Below, in pieces: positions 4,238 to 42,548 of a DNA stretch of 50,278 nt (its first letter is position 1; each line of letters opens with the position of its first letter). This DNA is from a virus. The notes beneath the pieces are model-generated. The model was not told the DNA's origin and did no database searches. It worked only from the letters and a program-made list of their open reading frames with translations. Location of the stretch: the IMG/VR virus record IMGVR_UViG_3300025082_000010, positions 1 through 50,278 of that record; one strand, given 5' to 3'. Made by a program: the position numbers and the translations under genes.

Positions 4238-4435
4238 ATGGACCTAAATCAAGAGATAACGGTAAGGGTCAATAAATGGCTAACAGACAACGGTATCCAG
4301 AAACAAAAACTACAAGAGATACTAAGTATTAGTAGGCCATCTTTGACCGCAAAATTAAACAATGATAGCACGTGGAAGAATAAAGAGATTGAGGTGCTCA
4401 AGCAAAACAAGATAATCAAAATAACAGTAAGATGA
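4238..4435 (+). CDS. Cro-like helix-turn-helix regulator, 65 residues
   Basis: Residues 20-40 (QKQKLQEILSISRPSLTAKL) form a typical lambda-repressor-type helix-turn-helix: a helix, the turn LSIS, and a recognition helix starting RPSLTAKL. The length fits Cro-like proteins. It is the first gene after the early rightward promoter and faces the divergent leftward operon, the place of a transcription switch. No partner CI-type repressor is visible. Its stop overlaps the next start by four bases. Confidence 0.75.
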   Translation: MDLNQEITVRVNKWLTDNGIQKQKLQEILSISRPSLTAKLNNDSTWKNKEIEVLKQNKIIKITVR

Positions 4436-4662
4436 AATTACAGACAGATATTAAAGTTTCCGATATTAAATCAGGGGACAAGATACATATAGTCGAATTA
4501 CTGACTAACTCGGATACAATATATAATGTCGAGTATGGACACGCTACGCCTATAGGAATAGACCCATTTGGAGTATATCTAGAGGGTTCGTATGTTGGTG
4601 AGCTTAGAACCTTTCTAACGATGCATGAAGAAGTAAACAACACTATAACCGTAATAAGATGA
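4432..4662 (+). CDS. Hypothetical protein, 76 residues
   Basis: I do not recognise it. The pattern of alternating hydrophobic residues (KIHIVELL, IYNVEYG, GVYLEGSYVGEL) suggests a small beta-rich fold. No cysteine pair or membrane segment. It overlaps its neighbours by four bases on both sides (ATGA), so it is translationally coupled between the Cro-like regulator and the ERF recombinase. Confidence 0.7.
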   Translation: MKLQTDIKVSDIKSGDKIHIVELLTNSDTIYNVEYGHATPIGIDPFGVYLEGSYVGELRTFLTMHEEVNNTITVIR

Positions 4663-5168
4663 GTATTTACAAGAAACTATTTGAACTACAAAAAGAGATA
4701 GGCACGATAAGCAAGAGCACAACTAACCCGTTCTTCAAGTCTAAGTACTTTGATATAAACGCATTGATTGAGCATGTACAGCCATTACTAGAAAAACACG
4801 GGTTATTACTAACACAACCAATATCAAACGGTAGGGTTTATAGTATAATTCATGATGTAGGTAGCGAAAAAATTGACTTTACAGAAAGCTCTATAGATTT
4901 ACCTCAAATATCAGACCCTCAAAAACTAGGTTCTGCAATCACATATTATAGGAGGTATACGCTTGCTTCTTTGCTTGCTTTACAGGCTGAGGATGATGAT
5001 GGAAATAAAGCTTCTAGATCAGAACCAAAGCAACCCGCAAAACCCATTCTTTCAGATAAACAATATCAATCAGCATTAAAAGGTACTAAAAAACAGATTA
5101 AAAATGTTTTAGCATCTTATGAGTTGAGCCAATACAAAAGACAAGAACTAGAAAAACTAATAAAATAA
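4659..5168 (+). CDS. erf: ERF-family single-strand annealing protein, 169 residues
   Basis: ERF proteins bind single-stranded DNA and promote annealing, helping phage recombination and genome circularisation. The family hallmark, SAITYYRRYTLASLLALQ followed by AEDDDGN, is at residues 92-116. The N-terminal KEIGTISKSTTNPFFKSKYF also fits (substrate-binding core). The C-terminal part after about 125 is a lysine-rich tail. The OB-fold protein is next, giving a recombination pair. Confidence 0.9.
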   Translation: MSIYKKLFELQKEIGTISKSTTNPFFKSKYFDINALIEHVQPLLEKHGLLLTQPISNGRVYSIIHDVGSEKIDFTESSIDLPQISDPQKLGSAITYYRRYTLASLLALQAEDDDGNKASRSEPKQPAKPILSDKQYQSALKGTKKQIKNVLASYELSQYKRQELEKLIK

Positions 5169-5170: not shown

Positions 5171-5518
5171 ATGTCACATACAATAGAGGGAAAACTACTA
5201 GTAAAATACGATACACAAGCTGTAAGTGATCGGTTTAGAAAAAGAGAGTTTGTTTTATACACAGAGGAAAACAACAACGGTACTATTTACGAAAACACCC
5301 CAAAATTTCAACTAACACAAGATAGATGTGATATACTTGATAATTTTAATCAAGGTGATAATATAAAGATCAATTTCAATGTAAGAGGCAACAAGTGGGA
5401 AAAAGACGGTACAACGTCTTATTTTACAAATCTTGATGCTTGGAAAATTGAGGCTATGGATAGTGTACAAAATCATGATTCACCAGTTCCAGAAGATGAA
5501 AAAATGCCTTGGGATTGA
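5171..5518 (+). CDS. DUF3127/SSB-like OB-fold protein, 115 residues
   Basis: A five-strand OB pattern is visible: EGKLLVKYD, REFVLYTEE, PKFQLTQD, GDNIKINFNVRG and SYFTNLDAWKIE. This matches the DUF3127 family, common in Bacteroidota and their phages. The acidic C terminus EDEKMPWD resembles the protein-recruiting tail of SSB. Following directly after ERF, it probably coats single-stranded DNA during annealing or replication. The SSB function is inferred from fold and tail. Confidence 0.75.
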   Translation: MSHTIEGKLLVKYDTQAVSDRFRKREFVLYTEENNNGTIYENTPKFQLTQDRCDILDNFNQGDNIKINFNVRGNKWEKDGTTSYFTNLDAWKIEAMDSVQNHDSPVPEDEKMPWD

Positions 5519-5799: not shown

Positions 5800-5988
5800 A
5801 TGGAACAAAATACAGATAAAACCCAATTACCTAAACATATTGTTAGCAATAGCACATTAGATAAATGTATTGAATTGTTTGACAAATTAACGCCAATGGA
5901 AAGGTTGATTGTAATGGATAAGACTTGTAAAAATTGCGGAAACACTATTGAAGAATGGGTGTGTAGTAAATGTGATAACCCTTGCTAG
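5800..5988 (+). CDS. Small protein with C-terminal zinc ribbon, 62 residues
   Basis: The last 20 residues carry two Cys pairs (CKNC and CSKC, with a further C at the end), a zinc-ribbon arrangement. The N-terminal part is helical and polar. The stop TAG is the first triplet of a 20-base sequence repeated after another small gene (44685-44924, minus strand). This marks it as a cassette-like gene. Confidence 0.65.
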   Translation: MEQNTDKTQLPKHIVSNSTLDKCIELFDKLTPMERLIVMDKTCKNCGNTIEEWVCSKCDNPC

Positions 5989-6016
5989 TATTAATGCTAA
6001 CGTTTAAGCTAAAATT
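5986..6016 (+). repeat. attC-like element, left half only
   Basis: It begins with TAGTATTAATGCTAACGTTT, identical for 20 bases to the start of the element behind the unrelated gene at 44685-44924, then AAGCTAAAATT. Only the TAAC-side half is present; the next gene begins where the right half would be. Confidence 0.5.
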
Positions 6017-6175
6017 ATGTTTATGAGCAAAGCGAAGAAATTAAATTTAGGTATTGTTATAAACCCGAAGGGTGAGCAGTTGGTTTGTCCTGTATGTAGA
6101 AGCAGAAGAATAAAACAAGACCCTAAATGGGAGGATAATGAATGTTTGAATTGTAATAAGATTTGGACAAACTAA
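6017..6175 (+). CDS. Zinc-ribbon microprotein, 52 residues
   Basis: The frame has CPVC at residues 24-27 and CLNC at 43-46, a classic two-knuckle zinc ribbon with a basic stretch between (RSRRIKQD). It ends WTN. The start may be ATG 6017 or the in-frame ATG at 6023. It lies between two attC-like elements in the same orientation. Possible roles include nucleic-acid binding or an RNA polymerase partner; neither is shown. Confidence 0.65.
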   Translation: MFMSKAKKLNLGIVINPKGEQLVCPVCRSRRIKQDPKWEDNECLNCNKIWTN

Positions 6176-6180
6176 TTGTT

Positions 6181-6228
6181 TATAACATTGAAATAAAGCG
6201 CGTTTTAATGCGCATTATGGAATGTTAT
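6181..6228 (+). repeat. attC-like element with GTTTTAATG loop
   Basis: Outer arms ATAACATT / AATGTTAT, inner arms ATAA-GCGC / GCGC-TTAT with one mismatch, loop GTTTTAAT. It starts six bases after the stop of the zinc-ribbon gene. It is followed by a mini hairpin (AGGC / GCCT around the same loop) and TTTATTT, which probably acts as a weak terminator and is shared with the element at 42224. Confidence 0.6.
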
Positions 6229-6263
6229 CAGGCGTTTTAATGCCTTTATTTAAAAATAAGAAA

Positions 6264-6482
6264 ATGACAATAGAAGAGAAAGTAGAACAAGCCCTACCGC
6301 TACACATACCTTTTAGCGCGTACGGAATAGCAGAAATAGTTTACCCCAACCTAAGGAGGAAACACCCTAAAGGACACTTTATTAACACAGGGGAGGGTGA
6401 TGTTAAGATAGTTCTTGCTAAATTGGACTATGTAGAGGATCTTGGTGACGGGATGTATTGTATAGAAAAAATAGAGTTATGA
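6264..6482 (+). CDS. Hypothetical protein, 72 residues
   Basis: Start chosen at ATG 6264 (MTIEEKVEQALPLHIPFSAY), because the longer frame upstream runs through the hairpin element. The sequence looks like a small winged-helix-type fold: three helices, then LAKLDYVEDLGDGMYCIE as a possible beta wing. That idea is tentative. The stop overlaps the next gene by four bases. Confidence 0.6.
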   Translation: MTIEEKVEQALPLHIPFSAYGIAEIVYPNLRRKHPKGHFINTGEGDVKIVLAKLDYVEDLGDGMYCIEKIEL

Positions 6483-6712
6483 CACAGAGTAAAGCATTTG
6501 AATACTTAATCGAAAACAAAGAGAATTGCAGAATAGCAATGGGCATGCTGACAAGCTCAGAGGAAAGCGCTCCTATTTGGGAGGCACTCAGAGAAACCCT
6601 GTTAAACCTTCAACAAGCGATTGCACAAGATAACTATGATGAGGTTGTTGAGTCAATAGATAGGAGTGAGGTTATTTGGGAATCTATAAAAAAGGATATA
6701 AAAAAAGCCTAG
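6479..6712 (+). CDS. Hypothetical helical protein, 77 residues
   Basis: The start ATG overlaps the previous stop (ATGA). The protein is predicted to be all-helical and acidic, ending in a lysine-rich tail (SIKKDIKKA). I do not recognise it. Its stop codon lies inside the left arm of a nine-base hairpin. Confidence 0.65.
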   Translation: MTQSKAFEYLIENKENCRIAMGMLTSSEESAPIWEALRETLLNLQQAIAQDNYDEVVESIDRSEVIWESIKKDIKKA

Positions 6713-6732
6713 GAAGATGAAAACCTAGGCTT
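6705..6732 (+). terminator. Possible terminator hairpin
   Basis: Perfect nine-base stem AAGCCTAGG / CCTAGGCTT with a ten-base loop, overlapping the stop of the preceding gene. There is no run of T after it on the plus strand (CATTAA), so it may only slow or trim transcription. Six A precede it, giving the minus strand a TTTTTT tail, so it could also act leftward. Confidence 0.45.
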
Positions 6733-6767
6733 CATTAATAAGACACTTTAAACAAAGTAATAAAACT

Positions 6768-7136
6768 ATGGTACAAATGTACAAAAAAACAACTACAATA
6801 AACGAGCTTCACCGTAAGTTTTCAACAACTGACTATCCAGCTTGTAAACATTTATGGGATTCTATGGATAGAATGGGGTTCGAATTATGGCAATCAATAG
6901 TTGATGAAACATATGATAGAGGAGGTGGTTTTGACCTTCTTAACTTTATGGAAGATCACTCCTACAGTTATGATTTAAGAGATGTATTCTTTGACCTGCA
7001 AGACTTAGGGTTTTGCGAGATTCACGCACATAAAATATTAAAGAGACCCTTTGTATATTTTATACCTATTATAGATTCTATGTATAATCTCACTGAGTGT
7101 AATTTAATACAGCATGTAAACGAGGATGTAAATTGA
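6768..7136 (+). CDS. Hypothetical protein, 122 residues
   Basis: Not recognised. Acidic and aromatic, with WDSMDRMGFELWQSIVDETY in the N-terminal half and a hydrophobic stretch FVYFIPIIDSMY near 102-113 that is too polar around it for a sure membrane helix. Starts at ATG 6768 (a second ATG lies nine bases on). Its stop overlaps the TTG start of the next gene. Confidence 0.7.
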   Translation: MVQMYKKTTTINELHRKFSTTDYPACKHLWDSMDRMGFELWQSIVDETYDRGGGFDLLNFMEDHSYSYDLRDVFFDLQDLGFCEIHAHKILKRPFVYFIPIIDSMYNLTECNLIQHVNEDVN

Positions 7137-7504
7137 AGGCGATAGTAAGACGGGTTACGCTACATAAAGCCAGTAGGCGCGCAGATGATTCAGTAGCAAT
7201 TACCTTCATAACCGACACAGAGCAAAGCTCTAAGCAGCTAACAGAGCTAGACGAAGCCAGAAAGCAGGGAGGAGCGCTATACTTCAAGCCTAACGGGATA
7301 TTAAACGAAGAGGAGGCCAAAGCCATAGACAACGCTGGTATCAAGCCAGAAGGCAAGAGTAAGAGCCAACAGTTAAGGGGTGCTATTTGGGCAACTTGGA
7401 AGACAAAGAAGGGTTTAGGGCTTACAGAATTAACAGAAGAGCAGTATTATAACGCTAGGATGGAGCATTACAAGGCTATGGAGCGAGAAGAAAGAGAGAT
7501 TTAA
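7133..7504 (+). CDS. Hypothetical protein, 123 residues, TTG start
   Basis: The only start that uses the whole conserved-looking frame is TTG, overlapping the previous stop as TTGA. The C-terminal part (QQLRGAIWATWKTKKGLGLT..EEQYYNARMEHYKAME) is helical and basic. Its last dozen residues (MEHYKAMEREERE) are repeated in the hybrid frame at 7746-7886. Position between recombination genes and a nuclease suggests a DNA-metabolism role, but no family is recognised. Confidence 0.7.
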   Translation: MKAIVRRVTLHKASRRADDSVAITFITDTEQSSKQLTELDEARKQGGALYFKPNGILNEEEAKAIDNAGIKPEGKSKSQQLRGAIWATWKTKKGLGLTELTEEQYYNARMEHYKAMEREEREI

Positions 7505-7516
7505 ACAGATAAAAAG

Positions 7517-7744
7517 ATGGCAAGATATAGAATTACTAATTATAAAAACGAAGGGTATATTGTTCAAGATAGGTCATGGAGAGATGTACCATTTACATGG
7601 AACACACACAGAGAACCCTATTACTGGTGTTATCGTATTTTTGGTACAATAGAAGAAGCTAAAAAGTATTTAAAAGAATATATTGAAAAAGAGAAGAAAT
7701 ACAAAGAGGAAGTAAAGAAAATGAAATACACTGAATACTTGTAA
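7517..7744 (+). CDS. Hypothetical protein, 75 residues
   Basis: N-terminal half is rich in tryptophan and tyrosine (WRDVPFTWN, YYWCYRIFG); the C-terminal half is a lysine/glutamate helix (KKYLKEYIEKEKKYKEEVKK). It resembles small proteins that pair a beta sheet with one helix. Function unknown. The start follows the leader TTTAAACAGATAAAAAGATG, shared with genes at 7891 and 8125. Confidence 0.65.
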   Translation: MARYRITNYKNEGYIVQDRSWRDVPFTWNTHREPYYWCYRIFGTIEEAKKYLKEYIEKEKKYKEEVKKMKYTEYL

Positions 7745-7745
7745 T

Positions 7746-7886
7746 ATGTACATAGTAAATAAATTTAAACCATTTTATAGGTTTCTAAAAAAAGAGGATA
7801 TACTACAAAACAATGTAGTAAATTACGCTGAAATGCAGCATTACAAGGCTATAGAGAGAGATGAAAGGGAGCTGTTAAACAGGTAA
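7746..7886 (+). pseudogene. 46-residue hybrid frame made from pieces of two neighbouring genes
   Basis: Residues 1-32 (MYIVNKFKPF...VVNYAEMQH) match the first 32 residues of the VRR-NUC protein at 8432. Residues 32-43 (HYKAIERDEREL) match the end of the 123-residue protein at 7133. The DNA around both parts also matches, including the trailing AAACAGGTAAAAAAATG leader. This is best read as the scar of a duplication followed by deletion. It is still open and may be translated, but it lacks the nuclease active site. Confidence 0.75.
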
Positions 7887-7890
7887 AAAA

Positions 7891-8112
7891 ATGAATAAGA
7901 AAGATTTTATAAACCTATTAATAAGGTTTTACGAAGAGTCTACAATTACAGAAGATGATTTTAATGTGATAATGAGTATGCTAAACCACGGATACGCAAA
8001 GGGGTATATTGATAAAACTGTGTCAGTGTTTTTAGATTCCTCAGATGATTATTATGAGTTAATAGAAAACCTGTATGGATTATGCAGCAGAATGGATGAA
8101 AAAGACTTTTAA
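7891..8112 (+). CDS. Hypothetical acidic protein, 73 residues
   Basis: Helical, acidic protein (DDYYELIENLYGLCSRMDEKDF at the end). Not recognised. It is in a run of same-strand genes with nearly identical 15-20 base leaders, consistent with past tandem duplication of gene-leader units. Confidence 0.65.
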   Translation: MNKKDFINLLIRFYEESTITEDDFNVIMSMLNHGYAKGYIDKTVSVFLDSSDDYYELIENLYGLCSRMDEKDF

Positions 8113-8124
8113 ACAGATAAAACG

Positions 8125-8448
8125 ATGAATGACAAAACATTTAAAGAAGACGCAAAACAGATAGTAGATATAGTATTTAATGGTAATCTATTTAAGGCTG
8201 AAATTACAAGAGACGATATGAATTGTCTTCAAGACTTTATAGAAAACTCTTTAAAACGAAGGTACGGAACTTATAAAAGAGCTGATCAATTTATTAAATC
8301 TATTGAAAGATTAGATAATATGCCTAGATGGGATTTATCTGTTTCTGAGAGTCATGGACATGGTGAGATTTCCATTGATGAAGATATAGATGGGGATTGG
8401 GTTAAGTTTGAGGATGTAAAAAAACTAAACGATGTACATAGTAAATAA
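8125..8448 (+). CDS. Hypothetical acidic protein, 107 residues
   Basis: Helical N-terminal half (DAKQIVDIVFNGNL, DFIENSLKRRYGTYK), then an acidic segment (SIDEDIDGDWVKFEDVKK). No known motif. Its last 17 bases overlap the start of the VRR-NUC gene in a different frame. Confidence 0.65.
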   Translation: MNDKTFKEDAKQIVDIVFNGNLFKAEITRDDMNCLQDFIENSLKRRYGTYKRADQFIKSIERLDNMPRWDLSVSESHGHGEISIDEDIDGDWVKFEDVKKLNDVHSK

Positions 8449-8845
8449 ATTCAACCCCTTCTTTAAAAAGTTGGGAAAAGAGGACTTACTACAAAATGCT
8501 GTAGTAAATTACGCTGAAATGCAGCACCAAGCAATTGCAATTCCATGTAATACTGAGGGCAAGAAAACAACATTTGTCAGGTGGTTATATTTAGTTATAG
8601 GAGGTAGAAAAGGCACTTTAGATTTATTCTTTCCGTATGCTAGAGGTGGGTTTCATGGGTTGTTTATTGAGCTTAAAAAAGATGGTGTAAAGATCTTTAA
8701 AAAGGATGGTTCCATGAGGTCTAACGAACATTTAGAACGCCAACATAAAACCATCCAAGCACATCGTAAAAACGGATACAAAGCAGAATTTGCAATAGGA
8801 TTTGAGGAATCAAAAGACATTTTAGACAACTATTTTAAGAAATAA
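8432..8845 (+). CDS. VRR-NUC domain nuclease, 137 residues
   Basis: VRR-NUC is a PD-(D/E)XK nuclease domain found alone in many phages, likely resolving branched DNA. Seen here: LLQNAVVNYAEMQ with the first acidic residue, GGRKGTLDLFF with the catalytic D, IELKK as the ExK part, and RQHKTIQAHRKNGY with the family glutamine. The length matches stand-alone members. It sits in the early operon after recombination genes. A partial duplicate of its start lies at 7746. Confidence 0.85.
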   Translation: MYIVNKFNPFFKKLGKEDLLQNAVVNYAEMQHQAIAIPCNTEGKKTTFVRWLYLVIGGRKGTLDLFFPYARGGFHGLFIELKKDGVKIFKKDGSMRSNEHLERQHKTIQAHRKNGYKAEFAIGFEESKDILDNYFKK

Positions 8846-8846
8846 T

Positions 8847-9134
8847 ATGAACTACGCAGAAACAAAAAAGAGACGAACAGAGCTGAAAAACAAGCTTGAA
8901 CACTGGACGGGTAGAGTACAAGAACGTACGGAGCTGGTCGACAAAATACAATCAGACATTAAAGAGAAAATGAAAATGTTTTCTAACGCTGACCAGCTAA
9001 CACACGCGGAAACATCACAACTACAGGCCGATCTATTACAGCTTAAAAAAGATCAAAGCAAGGCAACCCAAATGCTTTCTAAAGCAATGGATTTGAAGGA
9101 AGAGACACAAGAGAAACTGCTAAAATTGTCATGA
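8847..9134 (+). CDS. Coiled-coil hypothetical protein, 95 residues
   Basis: Almost wholly helical with heptad-like spacing (ELKNKLEHWTGRVQERTELV, LQADLLQLKKDQSKATQM). Probably a dimeric coiled coil. Being between the nuclease and a putative DNA-binding protein suggests an accessory in DNA metabolism, without direct evidence. The stop overlaps the next ATG by four bases. Confidence 0.7.
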   Translation: MNYAETKKRRTELKNKLEHWTGRVQERTELVDKIQSDIKEKMKMFSNADQLTHAETSQLQADLLQLKKDQSKATQMLSKAMDLKEETQEKLLKLS

Positions 9135-9472
9135 AACACAGCGATCTATACTTACATTTAAGAGAGCATATAACAGATGAGACATGGCAAAAGGTAGAAG
9201 ATATCATGACGTATTTCGGCACTTATTGGGAGGATCTAAAATCACATAGAAACCATTCAGTCAACACTTTGAAGTATATACATATTCGATATGCTAGGTT
9301 TTTAATCATACATTACCTACATAAAGAGTATAGCGTGCCGTTTAGGTTGCTAGCATCAATATTGTTCTCAGGATATAACTATAGATCATATTCTTACATT
9401 AGTCGTTGTGTAAACACAATGTTTACCAGACACATGTTTATAGAAAGATTTTACAAAGGATTAATAGAATAA
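9131..9472 (+). CDS. Hypothetical protein with possible DNA-binding helices, 113 residues
   Basis: The C-terminal half (FRLLASILFSGYNYRSYSYI, then SRCVNTMFTRHMF) faintly resembles the DnaA C-terminal helix-turn-helix layout, with basic and serine-rich turns. I do not rely on that. No enzymatic motif is seen. It ends this group of early genes, before a short hairpin. Confidence 0.55.
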   Translation: MKHSDLYLHLREHITDETWQKVEDIMTYFGTYWEDLKSHRNHSVNTLKYIHIRYARFLIIHYLHKEYSVPFRLLASILFSGYNYRSYSYISRCVNTMFTRHMFIERFYKGLIE

Positions 9473-9477
9473 CACAC

Positions 9478-9502
9478 GCACCCACATAGACGGCTTGGGT
9501 GC
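9478..9502 (+). terminator. Short hairpin after the nuclease gene block
   Basis: Six-base stem GCACCC / GGGTGC with a 13-base loop just after the stop at 9472. No T run follows, so termination would be partial. Confidence 0.4.
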
Positions 9503-9520
9503 TCTAACTAAAATAGGATT

Positions 9521-9634
9521 ATGGATGAATATACATTAATGATAATATCCCTTAGTGCCTACTGGTTCATGGCAGGGTTTATTTGGGGGCAATTAAAAGA
9601 AAGATGGGACGAATGGGAAACAAAACGACAATAA
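9521..9634 (+). CDS. 37-residue membrane microprotein
   Basis: MDEYTLMIISLSAYWFMAGF then IWGQ and a charged tail (KERWDEWETKRQ). One membrane helix from about residues 5 to 23, with the basic/acidic tail probably in the cytoplasm. The next start is two bases after its stop. Too short for family recognition. Confidence 0.6.
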   Translation: MDEYTLMIISLSAYWFMAGFIWGQLKERWDEWETKRQ

Positions 9635-9635
9635 T

Positions 9636-9803
9636 ATGCTAGGATTAATGGATGAAATGCCTGTAGGCAAATATAAAGGGGTGACAATAGAAGAGATAAT
9701 ACTAGAAGATGTTGACTATATCCATTGGGCTATTGATAACATTGACTGGTTTGAGGGCGAATTAACAGAAGAGGTTTTTGATTTTATTGAAGATGAGGCA
9801 TGA
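9636..9803 (+). CDS. ExoX C-terminal-like/DUF3820-like small protein, 55 residues
   Basis: MPVGKYKGVTIEEI followed by a YIHWAIDN-type helix is the pattern of small domains found at the C terminus of exonuclease X-like proteins and alone in phages (MPFGKYKG ... Y..W). It probably folds as a compact alpha/beta module. Function in phages is not established. The stop overlaps the following ATG. Confidence 0.6.
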   Translation: MLGLMDEMPVGKYKGVTIEEIILEDVDYIHWAIDNIDWFEGELTEEVFDFIEDEA

Positions 9804-9949
9804 AGTTAAAGAAGCAGATGAGGTTAATGGTAGCATATTTATTACAGACAGAAGACAAAGAGGTAATAGAATCTTATACCAAAACGTTCTGTAATATTGC
9901 TATAGAGTATTATCAAGACAAAGTAAAAAAACAAAACAATAAGACATGA
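9800..9949 (+). CDS. 49-residue helical hypothetical protein
   Basis: MKLKKQMRLMVAYLLQTEDK then a helix rich in Y, T and K. It starts in an ATGA overlap with the previous gene and ends in another ATGA overlap with the next, so it is surely part of the same translated chain. Function unknown. Confidence 0.6.
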   Translation: MKLKKQMRLMVAYLLQTEDKEVIESYTKTFCNIAIEYYQDKVKKQNNKT

Positions 9950-10182
9950 AAGCATACACAATGATATCTACGGATTTTACCGTATCTAGCAATCAAGTAA
10001 AAGAAATCTTTTTAGAAGCGATGGTTAAAGAGGGACAGATAACAAAAGAACAACAAGACGCAATGAATAATTATTGTATTACTGTTGTTGAGAAAGGGTT
10101 CTTCGGTAAGTTGTGGGACAAATTATGGAGTGATAGCGAGGATAATTATTTTAATATTGTAGTTGTAAAAATAGTAGAATAA
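9946..10182 (+). CDS. Hypothetical protein, 78 residues
   Basis: Helical middle (SNQVKEIFLEAMVKEGQITKE) and a beta-like end (YFNIVVVKIVE). No known motif. Coupled to the upstream gene by ATGA. Confidence 0.65.
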   Translation: MKAYTMISTDFTVSSNQVKEIFLEAMVKEGQITKEQQDAMNNYCITVVEKGFFGKLWDKLWSDSEDNYFNIVVVKIVE

Positions 10183-10201
10183 GTAAAATAGATGAATAAT
10201 T

Positions 10202-10450
10202 ATGGAAGATGAAATACAAGAGTTAATCGACGTTTATGGAATGTTTTTATCGATTAATTATCAATGTCGTAATGAGTTGTTTTATATTCAAATTTATGAC
10301 CTAGAATCATCAACAGAGTTTTTTGGATATGATATTTACGGTTATAAAACTTATAAAGAAGCTCTTGATTTTGGGTATTCTTTAGTGATGAATTTAGCTG
10401 GAGATATTCAGAAAGAAGTAGATAAGGTAATAAAATCGATAGAAATATAA
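10202..10450 (+). CDS. Hypothetical acidic protein, 82 residues
   Basis: Beta/alpha protein with strands (ELFYIQIYDLE, FFGYDIYGYKTY) followed by a helix (EALDFGYSLVMNLAGDIQKE). It is the last gene of the early rightward run before the non-coding region. Confidence 0.65.
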   Translation: MEDEIQELIDVYGMFLSINYQCRNELFYIQIYDLESSTEFFGYDIYGYKTYKEALDFGYSLVMNLAGDIQKEVDKVIKSIEI

Positions 10451-10470
10451 CCAAATGTAAAAACTATTCG

Positions 10471-10478
10471 TATATTTG
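10471..10478 (+). promoter_or_regulatory. -7 box of a promoter for a short RNA
   Basis: TATATTTG is a perfect match to TAnnTTTG, placed about 12 bases before a two-hairpin RNA that ends in a strong terminator. The -33 region has no clear TTTG, so the promoter may need an activator or be weak. Confidence 0.5.
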
Positions 10479-10479
10479 T

Positions 10480-10575
10480 ACAGGTGATTAATTTGAATGT
10501 GAGTAGAGGCTCATTGAAATTAGTCACCGAAATTACCAAACCCTAATACTCCTCTACAGTGTTAGGGTTTTTTTT
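10480..10575 (+). ncRNA. Candidate small RNA with two hairpins and complementary loops
   Basis: Hairpin 1 pairs GGTGATTAATTT (10483-10494) with AAATTAGTCACC (10517-10528), 12 pairs with one G-U, topped by AATG..AG / CTCATT and the loop TAGAGG (10504-10509). Hairpin 2 is the terminator, and its loop contains CCTCTA (10551-10556). The two loops are exact complements, seven pairs counting G10503-C10557, so a kissing interaction is possible. The length is about 95 bases. No reading frame of note lies inside. It could be a regulatory RNA acting on phage or host genes, or a leader of what follows. Confidence 0.6.
10538..10575 (+). terminator. Strong rho-independent terminator
   Basis: AAACCCTAATAC / GTGTTAGGGTTT gives 12 pairs (one G-U) around a nine-base loop, followed by a run of eight T that starts in the stem (10568-10575). 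It is the best terminator in the window and ends the candidate small RNA. Confidence 0.85.
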
Positions 10576-11050
10576 GGTCTATACCTTAAAAAACTCAACT
10601 CACAAATTAAAGACTTAGCCAAAATGGCTATTCAATGCGGTACGTTATCGCTGGTAATACGGAGTAAACCCTATACCACTACTATAGGAAACCATCTTCT
10701 CGATATTGGGGAGATGGTCTTATTTGATATTCTTTAGTACGGGAATTAAAATACTTACCGAAACCTAGCATATAGTTAGGCTTCTTATGATCAAGGGGCG
10801 AGAAACTCTCCGTTGTAAGAAGTAGGCTCAAGGAGACAGGGGCAGGCCAAATGCAAAGAGGATGGCTGGAAGGGGATGCAAGGTAACGCAGTGAGCATCC
10901 AAAACCTCTAAGTCTGTACATTGTTGTTATCTTGTAGTACAGATGTTTGATAAAGGGCGTAGCTCAAGGCGTAAGCAATTATCGAAACACATTAATTTTT
11001 TTACTAAGGGATTAATGTGTTTAAACAGAACGAAACTAAGACGAAGCAAT
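10576..11050 (+). ncRNA. About 470 bases of dense hairpins, possible structured RNA
   Basis: I see no convincing gene here. Stems visible by eye: AGCC/GGCT (10617), CCTATA/TATAGG (10670), ACCATCTTCTC/GGGGAGATGGT (10691-10718), CTTCTTA/TAAGAAG (10781-10822), AGAGG/CCTCT enclosing GGATGC/GCATCC (10857-10909), TCTGTAC/GTACAGA (10913-10943), GATAA/TTATC (10949-10983), and AAACACATTAAT/ATTAATGTGTTT (10985-11022). The stretch looks richer in G than its surroundings. I could not match it to a group I or II intron, a tRNA or another class I know. The strand is assumed from neighbours. Confidence 0.45.
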
Positions 11051-11068
11051 TAACTAAACAACAATAAG

Positions 11069-11284
11069 ATGAAAGCAACAGACATACAACGCATAATAGC
11101 AAGCACAAACGCACAATCTGCAAGTAAGGAAATATCGGATATAATAAACAACAAGATGAGTCACGATTACACGCTCATGATTAACGAGGTTTATCAAATA
11201 CTTGGCAAGTATGGCCCTGACAGGGAAGATATTAAAACAGACTTTAGAAAACTATGTGAACACTATAAAACTAAACAACAATAA
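11069..11284 (+). CDS. Hypothetical helical protein, 71 residues
   Basis: Polar helical protein (DIQRIIASTNAQSASKEISD, then YQILGKYGPDREDIKTDF). Not recognised. Its last codons and the next start repeat the 21 bases that precede its own start (11052-11072 equals 11269-11289), a sign of local duplication. Confidence 0.65.
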   Translation: MKATDIQRIIASTNAQSASKEISDIINNKMSHDYTLMINEVYQILGKYGPDREDIKTDFRKLCEHYKTKQQ

Positions 11285-11285
11285 G

Positions 11286-11489
11286 ATGATAGTAACAGTA
11301 ATAAACTGGAGTGCAATATATGCCCCTATCAAGGAATATGTAAAGAGGCTATGGATAACAAAACGAGCATATAAAGGATACTGTGAGTATATTAGTGCTG
11401 TAAGAGGCAAGCCAAAACCATATAGCGAGTTTAAGAACTTTGAATTATGGAAGATCGAAACAGGTTATAACGCATACAAACATAAATAG
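11286..11489 (+). CDS. Hypothetical protein, 67 residues
   Basis: I start it at ATG 11286 (MIVTVINWSAIYAPIKEY) one base after the previous stop. A longer frame from 11202 would overlap the upstream gene by 83 bases. Basic and aromatic-rich; no clear membrane helix. It directly precedes the holin gene. Confidence 0.65.
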   Translation: MIVTVINWSAIYAPIKEYVKRLWITKRAYKGYCEYISAVRGKPKPYSEFKNFELWKIETGYNAYKHK

Positions 11490-11490
11490 C

Positions 11491-11967
11491 ATGAATTTAG
11501 ATAAAGCAATAGACGGAGCTGATAAGCTCATGAACACAGTAGGCAATCAGATAGACCAGAACACAGAATCAAAGCAAGATAGACGGCATAGGTTAGATCT
11601 TACCAGCCCTTTTAAACTACCTCACCTTATTAGACCTCTAATATTAGCAGGTACATTTATTTTGTTTGCCATGAGTGTAATTTGGGCGTTTGCAATAGCT
11701 ACGATTTTGATTAGTAAAGTAGGCATAGCAGAAACAGGCAACCAAATGCTTTCTACTGATTCAATTATATTATACCTCCTAGGGGCTACAGGTACAGCTT
11801 TTGCTACTCCGTGTGGATTCTATTACAACTCACGTAAAAACGAGAAGATTAACGCCAACAAAGCAAAAGCAGCTATAGAAATTGAAGAGATAAAACTAAA
11901 ACAGCAGATCAAAACAGATAGGATTGAAGCTAGAAGAGATCGAAGGGATAAAAGAAAAGACAAATAA
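11491..11967 (+). CDS. Putative holin, 3TM_holin (GTA-holin) type, 158 residues
   Basis: Holins form lesions in the inner membrane at a set time. Here LPHLIRPLILAGTFILFAMS (43-62) starts a long hydrophobic segment up to about 76. A second segment, SIILYLLGATGTAFATPCGF (91-110), is followed by YYNSRKNEK and a charged helical tail. The RP.L...F at the start and the G(F/Y)(Y)..R..EK at the end are the layout of the 3TM_holin family. Start at ATG 11491 just after the previous stop. The endolysin is 2.7 kb downstream on the same strand. Confidence 0.65.
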   Translation: MNLDKAIDGADKLMNTVGNQIDQNTESKQDRRHRLDLTSPFKLPHLIRPLILAGTFILFAMSVIWAFAIATILISKVGIAETGNQMLSTDSIILYLLGATGTAFATPCGFYYNSRKNEKINANKAKAAIEIEEIKLKQQIKTDRIEARRDRRDKRKDK

Positions 11968-11977
11968 TAATTGCATG

Positions 11978-12021
11978 TACGTAACATTTGTATTATGTTT
12001 ACGTTATAGTAAGTAAGACAC
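11978..12021 (+). promoter_or_regulatory. Shared control element, copy 1 of 3
   Basis: ACGTAACATTTGTATTATGT and then TTACGTTATA..TAAGTAAGACAC closely matches 30312-30355 and, on the minus strand, 44220-44180. It has arms ACGTAA / TTACGT around about 15 bases, and inside them a TATGTTTA box. It lies 15-60 bases before the ATG at 12036. Likely a promoter with an operator for a phage or host regulator. Confidence 0.6.
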
Positions 12022-12035
12022 TAATTAATAACACT

Positions 12036-12296
12036 ATGAAAATTGTACAAATAGAGCGATTGCAAGAGACGGTAAGAGAGGATTATACATTAATAACCTT
12101 TAGAACATGGTGGGGTAAAGAGTTTTCTGAAATTTGTATTACTCCAAACTGGGGCATAGGGACTGATTTTGCTAGTAGTGGAATGAGTATAGGTGTAAGC
12201 CTTTGGCCTGTCGTTAAGGGTTTTTTAAATACCAGTGATAAAATGCATAATTACAGAAGAAGACCAGTAAATACATTAGCATCATTAGAAGAATAA
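12036..12296 (+). CDS. Hypothetical protein, 86 residues
   Basis: Start taken at ATG 12036 (MKIVQIERLQETVREDYTLI), since the longer frame would begin inside the control element. Tryptophan-rich beta pattern (FRTWWGKEFSEICITPNWG). Not recognised. First gene after control element 1. Confidence 0.65.
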   Translation: MKIVQIERLQETVREDYTLITFRTWWGKEFSEICITPNWGIGTDFASSGMSIGVSLWPVVKGFLNTSDKMHNYRRRPVNTLASLEE

Positions 12297-12302
12297 AGCA
12301 CT

Positions 12303-12506
12303 ATGACACAAGGAGATAAATACGAGTACAACACCCAATACAGAGAGCAGTATATCTTAGAGGTGAAAAGCTACAATGATAAGAGCATTAAATTTAAGGC
12401 CATGTATAAACATCCTGAGGATGGAGATTCTTTTAATCTTGACATACCACAAGATATATTAAGGAAGATGATTAAGCGCAACAACATAAGACTAATAACA
12501 GAATGA
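12303..12506 (+). CDS. Hypothetical small beta-rich protein, 67 residues
   Basis: Strand-rich pattern (YILEVKSYNDKSIKFKAMY) with a helix near the end (DILRKMIKRN). It has the look of an SH3- or Tudor-like barrel, a guess only. Overlaps the next gene by four bases. Confidence 0.65.
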   Translation: MTQGDKYEYNTQYREQYILEVKSYNDKSIKFKAMYKHPEDGDSFNLDIPQDILRKMIKRNNIRLITE

Positions 12507-12694
12507 AAGTATTAAAAAAGATTTACAGATTCTTTGAAAAAGCATGGCTATTAGCATTAGGACTAATAGCCGTTACAATAGGAGAGATGATCAGAAATGA
12601 TATTCACTGGACTTGGTTATTCTTGCCTGTATCATACCTAGCATTCACAGTTTACAACAACTTAACAAAAAATAATGAATCTAGAAGAACTTAA
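12503..12694 (+). CDS. Two-helix membrane protein, 63 residues
   Basis: Two hydrophobic segments (AWLLALGLIAVTIGEMI and WTWLFLPVSYLAFTVY) joined by a short charged loop, with a basic N terminus. A holin accessory or antiholin is possible because the holin is close by; this is inference only. Confidence 0.65.
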   Translation: MKVLKKIYRFFEKAWLLALGLIAVTIGEMIRNDIHWTWLFLPVSYLAFTVYNNLTKNNESRRT

Positions 12695-12926
12695 AAAGGA
12701 TAGCATCCCAAATAGAAACTTCTTCGTGAAATACTCAAACCACATTTTTACGTTTAAAAACCTCTTTAAATATACTGTAATTTATGAGATGAAGGATGAA
12801 AACAAAACAATAACGATATATGGGAAAATAGAGTATAGGAGTGATTTAAATATGAAAGAAACGTTAAAAAATCTAGTATTCGAACTAGAAGAAATTACAC
12901 ACATAGACATAAAAAACAATGATTAG
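12675..12926 (+). CDS. Hypothetical protein, 83 residues
   Basis: Alternating beta strands (NHIFTFKNLFKYTVIYEMK, KTITIYGKIEYRS) and a helix at the end. Overlaps the membrane protein before it by 20 bases and the next gene by 8. Not recognised. Confidence 0.65.
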   Translation: MNLEELKKDSIPNRNFFVKYSNHIFTFKNLFKYTVIYEMKDENKTITIYGKIEYRSDLNMKETLKNLVFELEEITHIDIKNND

Positions 12927-13287
12927 TTTAATATTAATAATCCTATCCTCCTTCTTTAACGCTATAATGGATCTATCCAGTGAAGGAAAGTTGAAAGATA
13001 AGTATAACAAAAATAAGACTTGGGAGAATAAATATAAGGAAGGTACTTTACAGCCTAAGTTCTTTGGGTCTACTTCGTGGCTTGTATGGACTACTGATCT
13101 CTGGCACCTTACAAAGATGCTTATGATAGTGTGCTTGATTGGCTCTATTGTATTTTACTCACCTCTTACACAATGGGGAAATGATGCGCATTACTACTAC
13201 AAGGCTCTAGATGCTTTCTTGTATCTCTTTGCGTGGCATGTAATGCATGAGGGAGTAAGAAAGGTTTATAAGTGGGTTAATAGGTAA
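12919..13287 (+). CDS. Multi-pass membrane protein, 122 residues
   Basis: An N-terminal hydrophobic segment (SLILIILSSFFNAIMDL), a middle one (MLMIVCLIGSIVFYS) and a third near FLYLFAWHVMHE. Histidines in the last (HVMHEG) and WHLTKM may be functional. Its TAA stop is also the beginning of an attC-like hairpin element. No family recognised. Confidence 0.65.
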   Translation: MISLILIILSSFFNAIMDLSSEGKLKDKYNKNKTWENKYKEGTLQPKFFGSTSWLVWTTDLWHLTKMLMIVCLIGSIVFYSPLTQWGNDAHYYYKALDAFLYLFAWHVMHEGVRKVYKWVNR

Positions 13288-13346
13288 CGAACGATCTGGC
13301 TAAACGTCTGCGGCTGAAAGGAGTTGCGTTTTAGCTCGTGTTAGCT
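13285..13346 (+). repeat. attC-like element overlapping a stop codon
   Basis: Starts with the TAA stop plus C (TAAC), ends GTGTTAGCT. Main stem GGCTAAACG / CGTTTTAGC (one bulge), with a long apical part. Matches the outline of the elements at 44963 and 44586. Confidence 0.55.
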
Positions 13347-13378
13347 TTTCGTTTATCATATACCACAAATTTAATAAA

Positions 13379-13561
13379 ATGGACTTACTGAAACGTAAAA
13401 TAAAAAGTTGGGATTTCACCGATAGTAGTGAGTGGAAGATAAATAGATGTGCTTCTAAATATCAACGTAAATTAATAAAGAAGATGTACCGAAGACTTAA
13501 GAGGTCAGTAAAAGGACACGAAAAAAGGGAAATAAAGAGATACTTAGACAATGAATGCTAA
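13379..13561 (+). CDS. Small basic protein, 60 residues
   Basis: Very lysine- and arginine-rich (YQRKLIKKMYRRLKRSVKGH), so it probably binds nucleic acid. Flanked on both sides by attC-like elements in its own orientation, as in a gene cassette. Its TAA stop starts the second element. Confidence 0.65.
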   Translation: MDLLKRKIKSWDFTDSSEWKINRCASKYQRKLIKKMYRRLKRSVKGHEKREIKRYLDNEC

Positions 13562-13626
13562 CGCCGCTTGTATACCAGCTTGAGCGACGTACGAGGTACG
13601 AGTATGGGGTATACAATTTGTTAAGC
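13559..13626 (+). repeat. attC-like element with GAGGTACGAG core
   Basis: The TAA stop is part of TAACGCC; the right end is GTTAAGC, which fits the attC R' rule GTTRRRY. The outer stem TTGTATACC / GGTATACAA is perfect (9 pairs). The inner stem CGTAC / GTACG has a three-base loop. The core CTTGAGCG..CGAGGTACGAG recurs at 44246-44290 and, more loosely, at 15186-15205. Confidence 0.65.
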
Positions 13627-13637
13627 AAATAGAAAAG

Positions 13638-13874
13638 ATGAAAGAAGTAAAAGAAGAGTTAGTAAGCTATGAGCTTGCAGTGATGTTGCAAAAAGCAGGG
13701 TTTGATGGTTTTGTACATAATTACTATTGCTCAGTAAAAGGGCTACAGGAAAACCAAGATCTAAGCAATTACAATAGTGATGACCATTGTTTTGGTGTAT
13801 ATTCAGCACCAACGCTTTCACATGTTCAAACATGGCTGCGAGTGGTGTATATTCAGCACCCAAACTTAGGATAA
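13638..13874 (+). CDS. Hypothetical protein, 78 residues, C terminus altered by a duplication
   Basis: The segment YSAPTLSHVQTWLR resembles a small-protein family common in Bacteroidota phages, which usually continues for another 20-40 residues. Here an 18-base word (TGGTGTATATTCAGCACC) is repeated at 13793 and 13843, 50 bases apart. That shifts the frame and gives a short ending (VVYIQHPNLG). It is probably truncated relative to its relatives; it may still be active. Confidence 0.6.
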   Translation: MKEVKEELVSYELAVMLQKAGFDGFVHNYYCSVKGLQENQDLSNYNSDDHCFGVYSAPTLSHVQTWLRVVYIQHPNLG

Positions 13875-13902
13875 TTAAAGAAGAACTTAACTTAATAGAA
13901 AA

Positions 13903-14652
13903 ATGAATGAGTTTATAATCATAAAAACTATCGAGGTTTCGGCACTAGAAATAACGGCGCAAGGGATGATTGCTGAAAACAAACAAAGGGAAATTGAAGG
14001 CGCTTCGATGGCTTACACTGAGGAAGACTTTGTGTTGATAGCTAAGCAAATCCAGGATGTTGCACAACAAATCAGGTTAAAAAAAAATAGAACTATGAAA
14101 ACTATTTGGAAAGAAAAAGATGTAGTCATGTTGGGCACTAGCGATCAAAACTGCCCTATCTTTAAGCATCCGACAGAAGAGAAGCTTAGGGTTGGGCTTG
14201 GCGTTCAAAACCACGAACCCCTACATCCTCGTGATAGATCACAACACCTCTACATCCTATCAGATGAGGAGATAAAAGAGGGTGATTGGTACTATTCGAG
14301 TTTGGACATATGTAGTAGAGATGATCGAGGGATTAGGAATTTCATGCCAGAACCAGAGGATTTAAAGTATTCTAAAAAGATCATAGCAACTACTAATCCG
14401 AAACTACTAACTACTCGGATTAGTGTTGACCAAGATTTCAATGAATCTTACATACCTGTACCACAAGTACCTCAATCATTTGTGGAGTTATTTGCTAAGG
14501 AGCAAGGTATTGATAAGGTGTTGGTGGAGTATAAAGAAACAGGGATTTCTCAAGAAAGAGGAGGTAGAACAGTCGGAATGACAACAGAATCATACGGATT
14601 TAAGCAAGCACTCAAACTAACCAACAACGAGATAAACATTAAACTAATATAA
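13903..14652 (+). CDS. Hypothetical protein, 249 residues, Bacteroidota-phage type
   Basis: Helical N terminus (about 1-65), then a beta-rich core with LSDEEIKEGDWYYSS, KKIIATTNPKLL and PQVPQSFVELFAKEQG followed by KVLVEYKE. This motif chain is familiar from uncharacterised proteins of Bacteroidota phages and mobile elements; no biochemical role is known to me. It precedes the endolysin by five bases. Confidence 0.65.
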   Translation: MNEFIIIKTIEVSALEITAQGMIAENKQREIEGASMAYTEEDFVLIAKQIQDVAQQIRLKKNRTMKTIWKEKDVVMLGTSDQNCPIFKHPTEEKLRVGLGVQNHEPLHPRDRSQHLYILSDEEIKEGDWYYSSLDICSRDDRGIRNFMPEPEDLKYSKKIIATTNPKLLTTRISVDQDFNESYIPVPQVPQSFVELFAKEQGIDKVLVEYKETGISQERGGRTVGMTTESYGFKQALKLTNNEINIKLI

Positions 14653-14657
14653 AAATC

Positions 14658-15167
14658 ATGAATAAATTTGGTAAAGCAAGCGCGCGAAACATCGCCACGG
14701 TACACAGTATACTACAAACACTAGCTTACAGGACACTAGAAAAGGTATCTACAAAACACTCATGGATAGACATGACAGTTTTAAAAAGTGGGGGTCTTCG
14801 TACAGCAATGGAGCAAAACGCGCTATTCAAAGAGAACCCACCGAAAACATCACTAGACGGCTATTCCAAAAAGAGCTATCATCAGTCAGGTTTAGCAATT
14901 GACCTAGTGCCATATCTTGACGGTCGAGCAGATTGGAGCAATGCAGAAGCCTTTTTATTGATCGCTGAGGCTGGTCTGGAAGTCTGGGAGGAAATGAAAG
15001 AAGAGGGACAGACGAGTATTTACTTTCTCCATTGGGGCGGCTTTTGGGGCGCTAAGGATTTAAACGATAATGGCCTGCTTGATGTTGATGATAAGCAAGG
15101 CTGGGACAGGCCACACTGGGAGCTTAGGACGTATGAGCAGACAAGGGGAGTTATGCCTATTTGGTAA
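14658..15167 (+). CDS. Endolysin, M15 peptidase with EF-hand-like loop, 169 residues
   Basis: Zinc peptidase cutting peptide cross-bridges in peptidoglycan. Ligand motifs: SYHQSGLAIDLV (His75, Asp82) and RPHWEL (His153, with Glu155). The domain fills the whole protein, so there is no wall-binding module or signal peptide; it would need a holin. Residues 134-145 (DLNDNGLLDVDD) have acidic or Asn residues at EF-hand positions 1, 3, 5, 9 and 12 with Gly at 6. The T5 endolysin, also M15, is calcium-controlled through a similar loop. Its stop codon begins an attC-like element. Confidence 0.88.
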   Translation: MNKFGKASARNIATVHSILQTLAYRTLEKVSTKHSWIDMTVLKSGGLRTAMEQNALFKENPPKTSLDGYSKKSYHQSGLAIDLVPYLDGRADWSNAEAFLLIAEAGLEVWEEMKEEGQTSIYFLHWGGFWGAKDLNDNGLLDVDDKQGWDRPHWELRTYEQTRGVMPIW

Positions 15168-15226
15168 CATCCGTATAAAACAGCCTGCGCAACGTCGAGG
15201 AACGAGATGGGTTTTATATTATGTTA
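15165..15226 (+). repeat. attC-like element after the endolysin gene
   Basis: TAACAT (with the stop TAA) pairs with ATGTTA, then TATAAAAC with GTTTTATA, leaving the unpaired CCG on the left and TT on the right. The core AACGTCGAGGAACGAG is a variant of the core at 13581. The start TAACATCCG is shared with the element at 44239-44298. Confidence 0.65.
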
Positions 15227-15474: not shown

Positions 15475-15914
15475 TGAAAGCACAGCCTGAATTAGATCTA
15501 TTTTTGGAGCCGTATTTATCAAACATAATAACGGCACACAATACTCATCAATCTAATAGATACCAACCAAAAATTAAACTTGACATGAATTGTCCATACC
15601 TACTAAATCATCGCCCTTTACCAGTTCCAGAAGTACATTTTAGTAATAATGATCTAGAAACTAACCATAGGATTGAGAAATATGAACCTATAATATGTCA
15701 GGACTGGTCTAGAGAATATGGTGATGATCTAACATATGAAGAGAAAAGAGATCTTGATAATTTTATGAATGAGTTGGGGGAGTTTACAAAGGTGAGGGAA
15801 GAAGTAAAAAGCAAGCGTTTTGATATAGATTGGTGGGAAAAGAATATAGTATGGTTTTTTGCGAGTAGTATAACTTTTTTCCTTTGGCTATTATATTTTA
15901 GCGCTAGTTATTAA
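15474..15914 (+). CDS. Tail-anchored membrane protein, 146 residues
   Basis: Soluble polar N-terminal 120 residues, then WWEKNIVWFFASSITFFLWL and LYFSASY, a single membrane helix at the very C terminus. Such topology puts the bulk of the protein in the cytoplasm. Function unknown; a lysis or host-takeover role is possible. Confidence 0.65.
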   Translation: MKAQPELDLFLEPYLSNIITAHNTHQSNRYQPKIKLDMNCPYLLNHRPLPVPEVHFSNNDLETNHRIEKYEPIICQDWSREYGDDLTYEEKRDLDNFMNELGEFTKVREEVKSKRFDIDWWEKNIVWFFASSITFFLWLLYFSASY

Positions 15915-15941
15915 AACCAAGCAAAGATTAGGAATTTATTG

Positions 15942-15954
15942 TATATTTACGTAA
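15942..15954 (+). promoter_or_regulatory. Possible promoter: TATATTTACG box
   Basis: TATATTTA, then CGTAA, forms the palindrome TTTACGTAAA six bases before the ATG at 15961 region. It shares TTTACGT with the three control elements. No clear -33 box. Confidence 0.35.
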
Positions 15955-15958
15955 AGAC

Positions 15959-16180
15959 ATGAAAACACTATCAAAAATAACATCTCTAAAACAATATGTT
16001 GAGTATGGAAACATGCTTGAGGTGCTTGGAGATCTAAAAGAACTTACAGAAGAACAGGATAAGCAGATTGAAGAGCTAGAAATGCTTATAAATGAGTATA
16101 ATCATAGTTACTTTTTCACGAAAGAAGAAATTGTTTGGAAGAATCGTGTTGATGATGTGTTGAGTAAAATGATAAGGTAA
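15959..16180 (+). CDS. Coiled-coil hypothetical protein, 73 residues
   Basis: Leucine- and glutamate-rich helices (EVLGDLKELTEEQDKQIEEL) suggest a dimeric coiled coil. Not recognised. It lies between the lysis region and packaging genes. Confidence 0.65.
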   Translation: MKTLSKITSLKQYVEYGNMLEVLGDLKELTEEQDKQIEELEMLINEYNHSYFFTKEEIVWKNRVDDVLSKMIR

Positions 16181-16184
16181 AGAC

Positions 16185-16403
16185 ATGAAGATGGATTTAA
16201 TTAAGATGGATTTGAAAATGGGATCATTTAAAAGCAATGGATCAACGAGGAAACCTGAACCTTTCGAGTATAAGACAGAGATAGAGATGGTGGAGACTGA
16301 TAGATCGTGTGATAAAATTGATTGCACGTTCAATATTTACGAAGAAAAAAGGTGCTTCAATGAACAGACACATAAAGAATGTGATAGAAGAGAAGTAAAA
16401 TAA
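16185..16403 (+). CDS. Small cysteine-containing hypothetical protein, 72 residues
   Basis: N terminus rich in Met/Lys (MKMDLIKMDLKMGSFKSNG). The C-terminal part has four Cys (CDKIDC ... C ... C) spaced as in a possible zinc site. Direct upstream neighbour of the terminase genes. Function unknown. Confidence 0.6.
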   Translation: MKMDLIKMDLKMGSFKSNGSTRKPEPFEYKTEIEMVETDRSCDKIDCTFNIYEEKRCFNEQTHKECDRREVK

Positions 16404-16430
16404 TTTAAAAACCTAAACTAAAAGGCAGTT

Positions 16431-16811
16431 ATGGGAGCAGAGAAAGGAAATAGATACGCAGAAAAACACAATTTAGAAGAGTGGGAAAAGATTTTTAATG
16501 AAATATATGATAACGCTGCAAAGGGTAAATACAATAGCCTGCAAGATGCTTGGATAAGTAACGGGGTTAGACAAAGTACAGCTACTTGGTTGTGTGACAA
16601 GTATGAAGTATTGGCAAGTATTAAAAAAGATATTGCATCAGCGATCATTAGAGAGATCAATGATAGGGGTTTAACTGGTGACTATAACCCTGCAATGTGT
16701 ATTTGGAGAAACAAGCAACTAGGGGAGAAAGATACGCAATATCAGGAGCAGAATATTGTAGTAAAAGAGTTCGACCTAGACAAAACCCTAAAAGGATTTA
16801 TAGGTGATTAA
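16431..16811 (+). CDS. terS: Putative terminase small subunit, 126 residues
   Basis: Placed directly before the large terminase subunit and overlapping it by eight bases. Residues 35-65 (KYNSLQDAWISNGVRQSTAT and following) fit a helix-turn-helix for recognising the packaging site; the rest is helical, as in oligomerising small subunits. The call rests mainly on position and fold outline. Confidence 0.75.
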   Translation: MGAEKGNRYAEKHNLEEWEKIFNEIYDNAAKGKYNSLQDAWISNGVRQSTATWLCDKYEVLASIKKDIASAIIREINDRGLTGDYNPAMCIWRNKQLGEKDTQYQEQNIVVKEFDLDKTLKGFIGD

Positions 16812-18132: not shown

Positions 18133-18191
18133 TTAAATATTTTTTGCATATTTGGGAAAATGTGTTATTAATTATATAAAAATATTGAAAT

Positions 18192-18815: not shown

Positions 18816-18818
18816 GAT

Positions 18819-30311: not shown

Positions 30312-30355
30312 AACGTAACATTTGTAGTATGTTTACGTTTATATAATTAAGACAC
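30312..30355 (+). promoter_or_regulatory. Shared control element, copy 2 of 3
   Basis: AACGTAACATTTGTAGTATG then TTTACGTTTATATAATTAAG and ACAC. Arms AACGTAA / TTACGTT are perfect, with 14 bases between. The part from TTTACG to GACAC is identical to copy 3 (minus strand, 44220-44180). It precedes the first gene of the tail operon (ATG 30374). Confidence 0.7.
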
Positions 30356-42545: not shown

Positions 42546-42548
42546 TCA

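Follow-up and report, generated by a model that had tools for sequence, protein, structure and literature searches.

The window analysed here is the whole of virus record IMGVR_UViG_3300025082_000010 (positions 1-50,278; 50,278 nucleotides). On its minus strand, six hairpin sites (m1-m6) lie within 2.8 kb, at 45010-42226, next to small genes. Further sites of the same kind lie behind small genes on the plus strand, among them e0-e3. The sites have the architecture of attC, the recombination site of integron cassettes. R'' and R' form an outer box with an AAC/GTT core, followed inwards by unpaired spacers, an L box and a variable loop.

Single-sequence folding is not decisive for the identity of these sites. 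When they are folded as single-stranded DNA, as the initial annotation of the plus strand had proposed, e1-e3 give shuffle z values of -0.7 to -1.2 and e0 gives -2.2, which is weak evidence by itself. Because folding alone was weak, covariance models were built from sites in other viral records, with no window sites included. These models are home-built and are not those of IntegronFinder. R1 contains 12 sites with the loop CGTTTTAATG. The loop AGCTTGAGCG..CGAGG.ACGAG is that of the nine sites in R2; RNAalifold picked only this family-A loop, so that R2 relies mainly on sequence. Together, R1 and R2 recover 10 of the 11 window sites (E 1.5e-11 to 0.1), and the eleventh, m6, is placed by its cassette end. 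The remaining R1 matches in the window, up to E 0.2, all overlap the m6 region. When about 80 viral loci related by their terminase and seven loci from chromosomes are searched, significant R1 matches occur in only four records (L029, L079, L082 and L084). A first loop pattern used in the contig search gave only chance matches, in GC-rich contigs, and a pattern scan of genome contigs gave matches that by appearance are at chance level.

In the minus-strand array, m1 (45010-44963; R1 E 1.5e-11) begins at the stop codon of gene 45241-45008. Cassette A (44672-44966, 295 bp, gene 44924-44685) extends from m1 to the long site m2 (44675-44586; R1 E 9.8e-5). Cassette B (44295-44589, 295 bp, gene 44586-44296) extends from m2 to m3 (44298-44239; R2 E 5e-7, R1 E 9e-4), which has the loop GCTTGAGCG..CGAGGTACGAG. 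Site m4 (43051-43004; R1 E 1.6e-7) begins at the stop codon of gene 43558-43049. It is followed by cassette C (42542-43007, 466 bp, genes 42972-42691 and 42743-42549), which leads to m5 (42545-42500; R1 E 1.3e-10), and by cassette D (42272-42503, 232 bp), which contains a DUF551 gene (42485-42288; E 1.8e-4) and leads to m6 (42275-42226). Site m6 forms a hairpin without a model match on the minus strand, and its R'' matches the R' of m5. Like m1 and m4, m3 begins at the stop codon of a small gene, and so do e1, e2 and e3 on the plus strand.

The four plus-strand elements listed in the initial annotation are found where it placed them, within a few bases. These are e0 (6183-6227; R1 E 1.1e-7), e1 (13285-13343; a sequence reading, with R1 E 0.1 at 13289-13343), e2 (13559-13623; R2 E 3e-8) and e3 (15165-15226; R2 E 1e-6, R1 E 0.007). 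The sequence bears out that the TAA of e1, e2 and e3 doubles as the stop codon of the preceding gene, which for e1 is gene 12919-13287, and that the site behind the endolysin gene is e3. The half element reported at 5986 corresponds to a full, probable attC-type site at 5998-6059 (plus), which the model matches with modest support (R1 E 0.007). This site overlaps the start of the next small gene, and 9 bp of complementarity link its R' (at 6056) with the R'' of e0. Between e1 and e2 there is a possible cassette of 223 bp (13340-13562, plus, gene 13379-13561) with ends complementary over only 6 bp. The plus-strand cluster is real, but the main, denser cluster is the one on the minus strand, which the earlier reading had missed.

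The R' boxes and stems depart in part from the classical attC pattern. As previously claimed, e2 alone fits the GTTRRRY rule for the R' box, and the other window sites break it. Arrays beside true IntI in Bacteroidota also break this rule, so the departure characterises the clade and does not speak against the phage sites. The proposed check for extrahelical bases gives a divided result. A single extrahelical T is present in the 3' arm of m1, m4 and e1, and none is present in m3, e2 or e3.

The cassette ends have the signature expected of integron recombination. In a cassette circle, the site would consist of an R'' from the gene end and an R' that closes the circle at G|TT. After insertion in an array, each R'' stands next to the R' of the cassette that follows it, and the flank of that R' should then complement the flank before the next R''. 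This complementarity is 10 bp from m1 to m2 (13 of 14 with one mismatch), 10 bp from m2 to m3, 9 bp from m4 to m5 and 9 bp from m5 to m6. The rule thus holds at 9-10 bp in four of the five minus-strand steps. It fails from m3 to m4 (3 bp), and the step from e1 to e2 has 6 bp. Within a site's own hairpin the complementarity is about 4 bp. Over 15 steps from the window and viral record L109 (IMGVR_UViG_3300030328_003618), the sum is 109, compared with 62.9 in shuffled data, and none of 100,000 permutations is as high (p<1e-5). When all candidates within 4 kb are considered, the best partner of each rule-obeying minus-strand R' is the next site. As background, a partner of at least 9 bp within 1.2 kb exists for only 14 of the window's 378 TGTTR words, compared with four of the six array sites. 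The same rule holds in other viral arrays and, at 7-15 bp, in arrays beside IntI in Bacteroidota chromosomes.

Given the conserved boxes and spacers, the matches to models from other viruses and the cassette-end rule, the attC interpretation holds, as does the integron-cassette reading put forward in the initial annotation. Cassettes A-D have the 9-10 bp of end complementarity expected of a circular origin, and at least four small genes are carried as exchangeable integron-style cassettes. The minus-strand array contains at least two attC sites close together without an integrase. This supports its assignment to the clusters of attC sites lacking an integron integrase (CALIN). The window as a whole is read, with a probability of about 80%, as a probably lytic Bacteroidota phage that carries integron cassettes and no integrase of its own.

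Hairpins behind small genes could also be plain terminators of transcription or elements of mRNA 3' ends. In favour of this, their starts coincide with stop codons, they can fold as RNA, and behind e0 come another hairpin and a T-rich stretch. Most sites, however, have no T-run, and the RNA shuffle z of e1-e3 is weak. Termination also leaves the TAAC/GTTA boxes and the complementarity of the cassette ends unexplained, and an Rfam search with the elements matched no family. As the main function of the hairpins, termination is very improbable; a secondary terminator role is possible.

What the arrays share with other phages at the DNA level is nearly limited to the sites. The similarity starts from or near TAAC, and the neighbouring genes differ. 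Site m1 matches Polaribacter phage P12002L at 78.8% identity over 101 bp and viral contig L103 at 84%. Site m5 is 91% identical over 70 nt to viral contig L127. In other phages, the sites recur beside unrelated genes. P12002L carries R1 sites of its own, and its terminase is 41% identical to that of the window. Promoter-stem-loop cassettes have been described in T4-type phages. By analogy, the window sites could be homology linkers, short shared sequences at gene borders for gene shuffling by the phage ERF annealing protein. The phage encodes ERF and SSB-like proteins, and the sites are the only DNA that phages have in common at these places. Homology alone would not make the flank of each R' the reverse complement of the flank of the next R'', with a sequence that differs from cassette to cassette. 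The same signature is also found beside IntI and beside another recombinase, which argues for site-specific exchange. The linker explanation is judged very unlikely.

CALINs in virulent phages, including P12002L, have been published, and IntI1 recombined the site P12002L_attC2 in Escherichia coli (Qi et al. 2023, PMC9892861). The initial annotation had called a phage-borne cluster without an integrase remarkable. The cluster is real, but its novelty is weakened by this publication. The CALIN of P12002L and that of the window are both attC clusters without an integrase in a virulent phage, and P12002L is a distant relative. The window has more sites, has them on both strands, and its cassette ends are shown by complementarity. 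Reversed polarity, described below, and a link to a non-IntI recombinase are absent from the consulted parts of PMC9892861, which note methyltransferase cassettes in phage CALINs. In viral locus L079, a cassette at 1014-1950 (minus) contains what by eye is a DNA methyltransferase gene, and its ends are complementary over 10 bp.

Several further observations concern viral cassettes. A 5' leader, (T)AGTACGGATTATTAAC, is shared between R' and the start codon of cassettes with different genes. It is present in the window (44930-44966), in L109 (2110-2150), in L111, in L124 (2805-2850) and in L227 (4027-4065), and is perhaps a cassette promoter or a ribosome-binding leader. In L029, two near-identical sites (4315-4422) are separated by 62 bp that contain no gene, which resembles an empty cassette or a duplicated site. 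L109 is a 70.7 kb viral record with about nine short cassettes at 15610-19292. This array adjoins genes that look by eye like a P-II regulator and an ammonium transporter, so that L109 is either a phage with metabolic genes or includes a host flank.

The absence of an integrase, as first reported, is confirmed: neither PF00589 nor the profile of a new recombinase described here has a match in the record, which contains no tyrosine recombinase. The window is thus not a complete integron by these two profiles; attI was not sought. In a sample of 395 Bacteroidota genomes, R1 has matches in 22. Four of these (G155, G132, G309 and G332) encode a tyrosine recombinase of about 360-380 aa, and the matches lie 1-23 kb downstream of its gene. 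This protein has an N-terminal extension, SAM_4 and Phage_integrase domains, and conserved catalytic residues. In an alignment it has no IntI-specific insert around patch III, and its score is under the TIGR02249 cut-off. In the recombinase tree it falls outside the IntI clade; this tree has long branches and does not resolve the new family as a single clade. The protein scores near or above the cut-off of NF040815 (XerA_Arch / 'integron integrase', NCBIfam) but differs from that family in an N-terminal extension of about 90 residues.

In 40 other independent loci of the new family, which were not used in discovering the association, there are 31 cassette pairs in 15 loci, found with a site detector tuned on viral sites. 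All 31 pairs are 3' of the recombinase gene and in one orientation, and none is on the 5' side (351 kb). Control DNA contains one pair in 524 kb. By strand counts in the loci with pairs, the orientation of the cassette genes is that of the recombinase gene. An arrangement in which arrays converge on the recombinase gene was considered and dropped because the gene strands are co-directional. The IntI-specific domain has been called a defining feature of IntI (PMC9668308), so arrays beside the other recombinase would probably be filed as CALIN by current tools.

A different possibility is that the cassettes are moved by a classical host IntI of the TIGR02249 type. IntI is above the curated cut-off in 105 of the 395 genomes, the IntI arrays share the cassette-end rule, and the activity of IntI1 on the P12002L site points the same way. 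R1, however, has no match in the IntI-array loci that were tested (L282, L294 and L297), and its matches lie inside arrays beside the other recombinase. In genomes with both, such as G075, G110, G224 and G365, IntI and the R1 matches are on different contigs. Movement by IntI is less likely than not to be the explanation, though it is by some way the most plausible of the alternatives weighed here. The new recombinase family is instead inferred to move the phage cassettes. In a set of complete genomes, IntegronFinder 2.0 named a single complete integron in Bacteroidetes proper (PMC9024848). The IntI count in the present sample is much higher than complete-genome surveys suggest.

The Bacteroidota IntI integrons have the same relaxed R' as the phage sites (GTTA followed by variable bases). 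Their sites are longer than those of phages (median 118 vs 60 nt), as are their cassettes (621 vs 233 bp), and their genes are on the other strand relative to the site. The class 1 cassette aadA1 of plasmid R100 has the same box, spacer and L-box layout as the phage sites, with the site directly behind the gene. Its R' fits GTTRRRY, unlike most window sites.

The polarity of sites to genes separates the viral cassettes from the chromosomal ones. Read along its coding strand, the aadA1 cassette shows TAACA..CGTTA, whereas the window sites mostly show TAACG..TGTTA. The longest open reading frame (ORF) is on the strand opposite TAACG..TGTTA in 54 of 59 cassettes beside the non-IntI recombinase and in 45 of 49 IntI cassettes. 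Of 43 viral cassettes, 38 have it on the strand that reads TAACG..TGTTA. For R1 sites, the upstream ORFs are on the site strand in 33 of 34 viral cases and in 12 of 37 chromosomal cases (Fisher p=3.7e-9), and the downstream ORFs also differ between the two groups (p=2.6e-11). The canonical attC-to-gene polarity is thus not found in the viral cassettes, which are reversed relative to R100 and to the arrays of Bacteroidota chromosomes. In canonical attC, the extrahelical base is in the bottom strand. In m1, m4 and e1, the extrahelical T falls within the coding strand, in its 3' arm. With reversed polarity, the recombining strand in the phage would be the coding strand, and host cassettes would be in antisense orientation once inserted into a phage array. 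The phage cassettes may therefore form a pool largely apart from host cassettes.

In the proposed mechanism, each site would fold as single-stranded DNA into an attC hairpin with a TAAC/GTTA outer box, spacers, L box and loop. A recombinase would swap strands between the G and the TT of GTTA. The gene and its own site would leave as a circle and re-enter at another attC, and this history would leave the cassette ends complementary to each other. The recombinase would be supplied by the host, and most likely is the Bacteroidota tyrosine recombinase found beside arrays. The wider proposal combines two parts: a second Bacteroidota integron system, run by a recombinase without the IntI domain, with arrays that would lie downstream of and co-directional with its gene; and a separate, reversed phage pool that uses the host enzyme. 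The odds for and against this wider proposal are judged to be about even.

Several results weigh against the reading of the window and its extension to host enzymes. Steps m3-m4 and e2-e3 break the cassette-end rule, so part of the series does not consist of intact cassettes. The same cassette was not found in two contexts. The window cassette proteins have almost no relatives in phages, and the viral contigs searched contain no close relatives of the endolysin or of two cassette proteins. The L box of the family-A sites lacks an extrahelical base. The loop of these sites, which the initial annotation had suggested looking for in flavobacterial genomes, is absent from the 395 Bacteroidota genomes. 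Among chromosomal R1 sites, no more than about two thirds to four fifths show the opposite polarity, and gene strands were checked only in loci with detected pairs. A host IntI, a protein common in the sampled genomes, could do the work.

The rest of the record is consistent with a phage. It is probably lytic and probably flavobacterial. Its terminase is at most 48% identical to terminases of Bacteroides, Flavobacterium, Cellulophaga and Polaribacter phages, and its genes include an endolysin, a helicase and a DNA methylase. The ERF single-strand annealing protein (4659-5168, plus; PF04404, E 2e-24) and the SSB-like protein (5171-5518, plus; phrog_4932, E 1e-23) are context of the arrays only. 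The record ends are repeated (1-254 vs 49607-50278) in two blocks, 1-130 matching 49607-49736 and 135-254 matching 50159-50278; one of the copies is about 420 bp longer. The record is likely to be whole and to have an insertion or gene variant where its ends meet.

Three other features of the record were observed. The stretch 10440-11060 is about 600 bp without a clear plus-strand gene and contains several short inverted repeats. It could contain a structured RNA; a search of Rfam with this stretch gave no match. A perfect 30-nt inverted repeat (12700-12729 and 19428-19457), far beyond chance, is common to a small gene and the large gene 18964-20763, and may reflect a past inversion, a copying event or antisense pairing. 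A sequence of about 50 nt, ACGTAACATTTGTA.TATGTTTACGT, has three copies ahead of genes (11979-12026, 30313-30360 and, on the minus strand, 44170-44237) and is likely a phage promoter or operator.

Phage CALINs, the activity of IntI1 on their sites and the case of P12002L are already known. As far as the literature searches reach (mostly outside subscription journals, and bioRxiv excluded), three results are apparently new: the demonstration of cassette ends in a phage, the reversal of polarity in viral cassettes, and a recombinase other than IntI that has its arrays on a fixed side. Phage mosaicism is usually ascribed to illegitimate or homologous recombination. Cassettes of this kind would give small accessory genes a precise, enzyme-driven route of exchange. 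With their reversed polarity, phage and host cassettes would not be simply interchangeable, and integron-like systems in Bacteroidota would be commoner than IntI-based searches report. The finding suggests that exchangeable genes form a pool belonging to the phages, with a host enzyme moving them.

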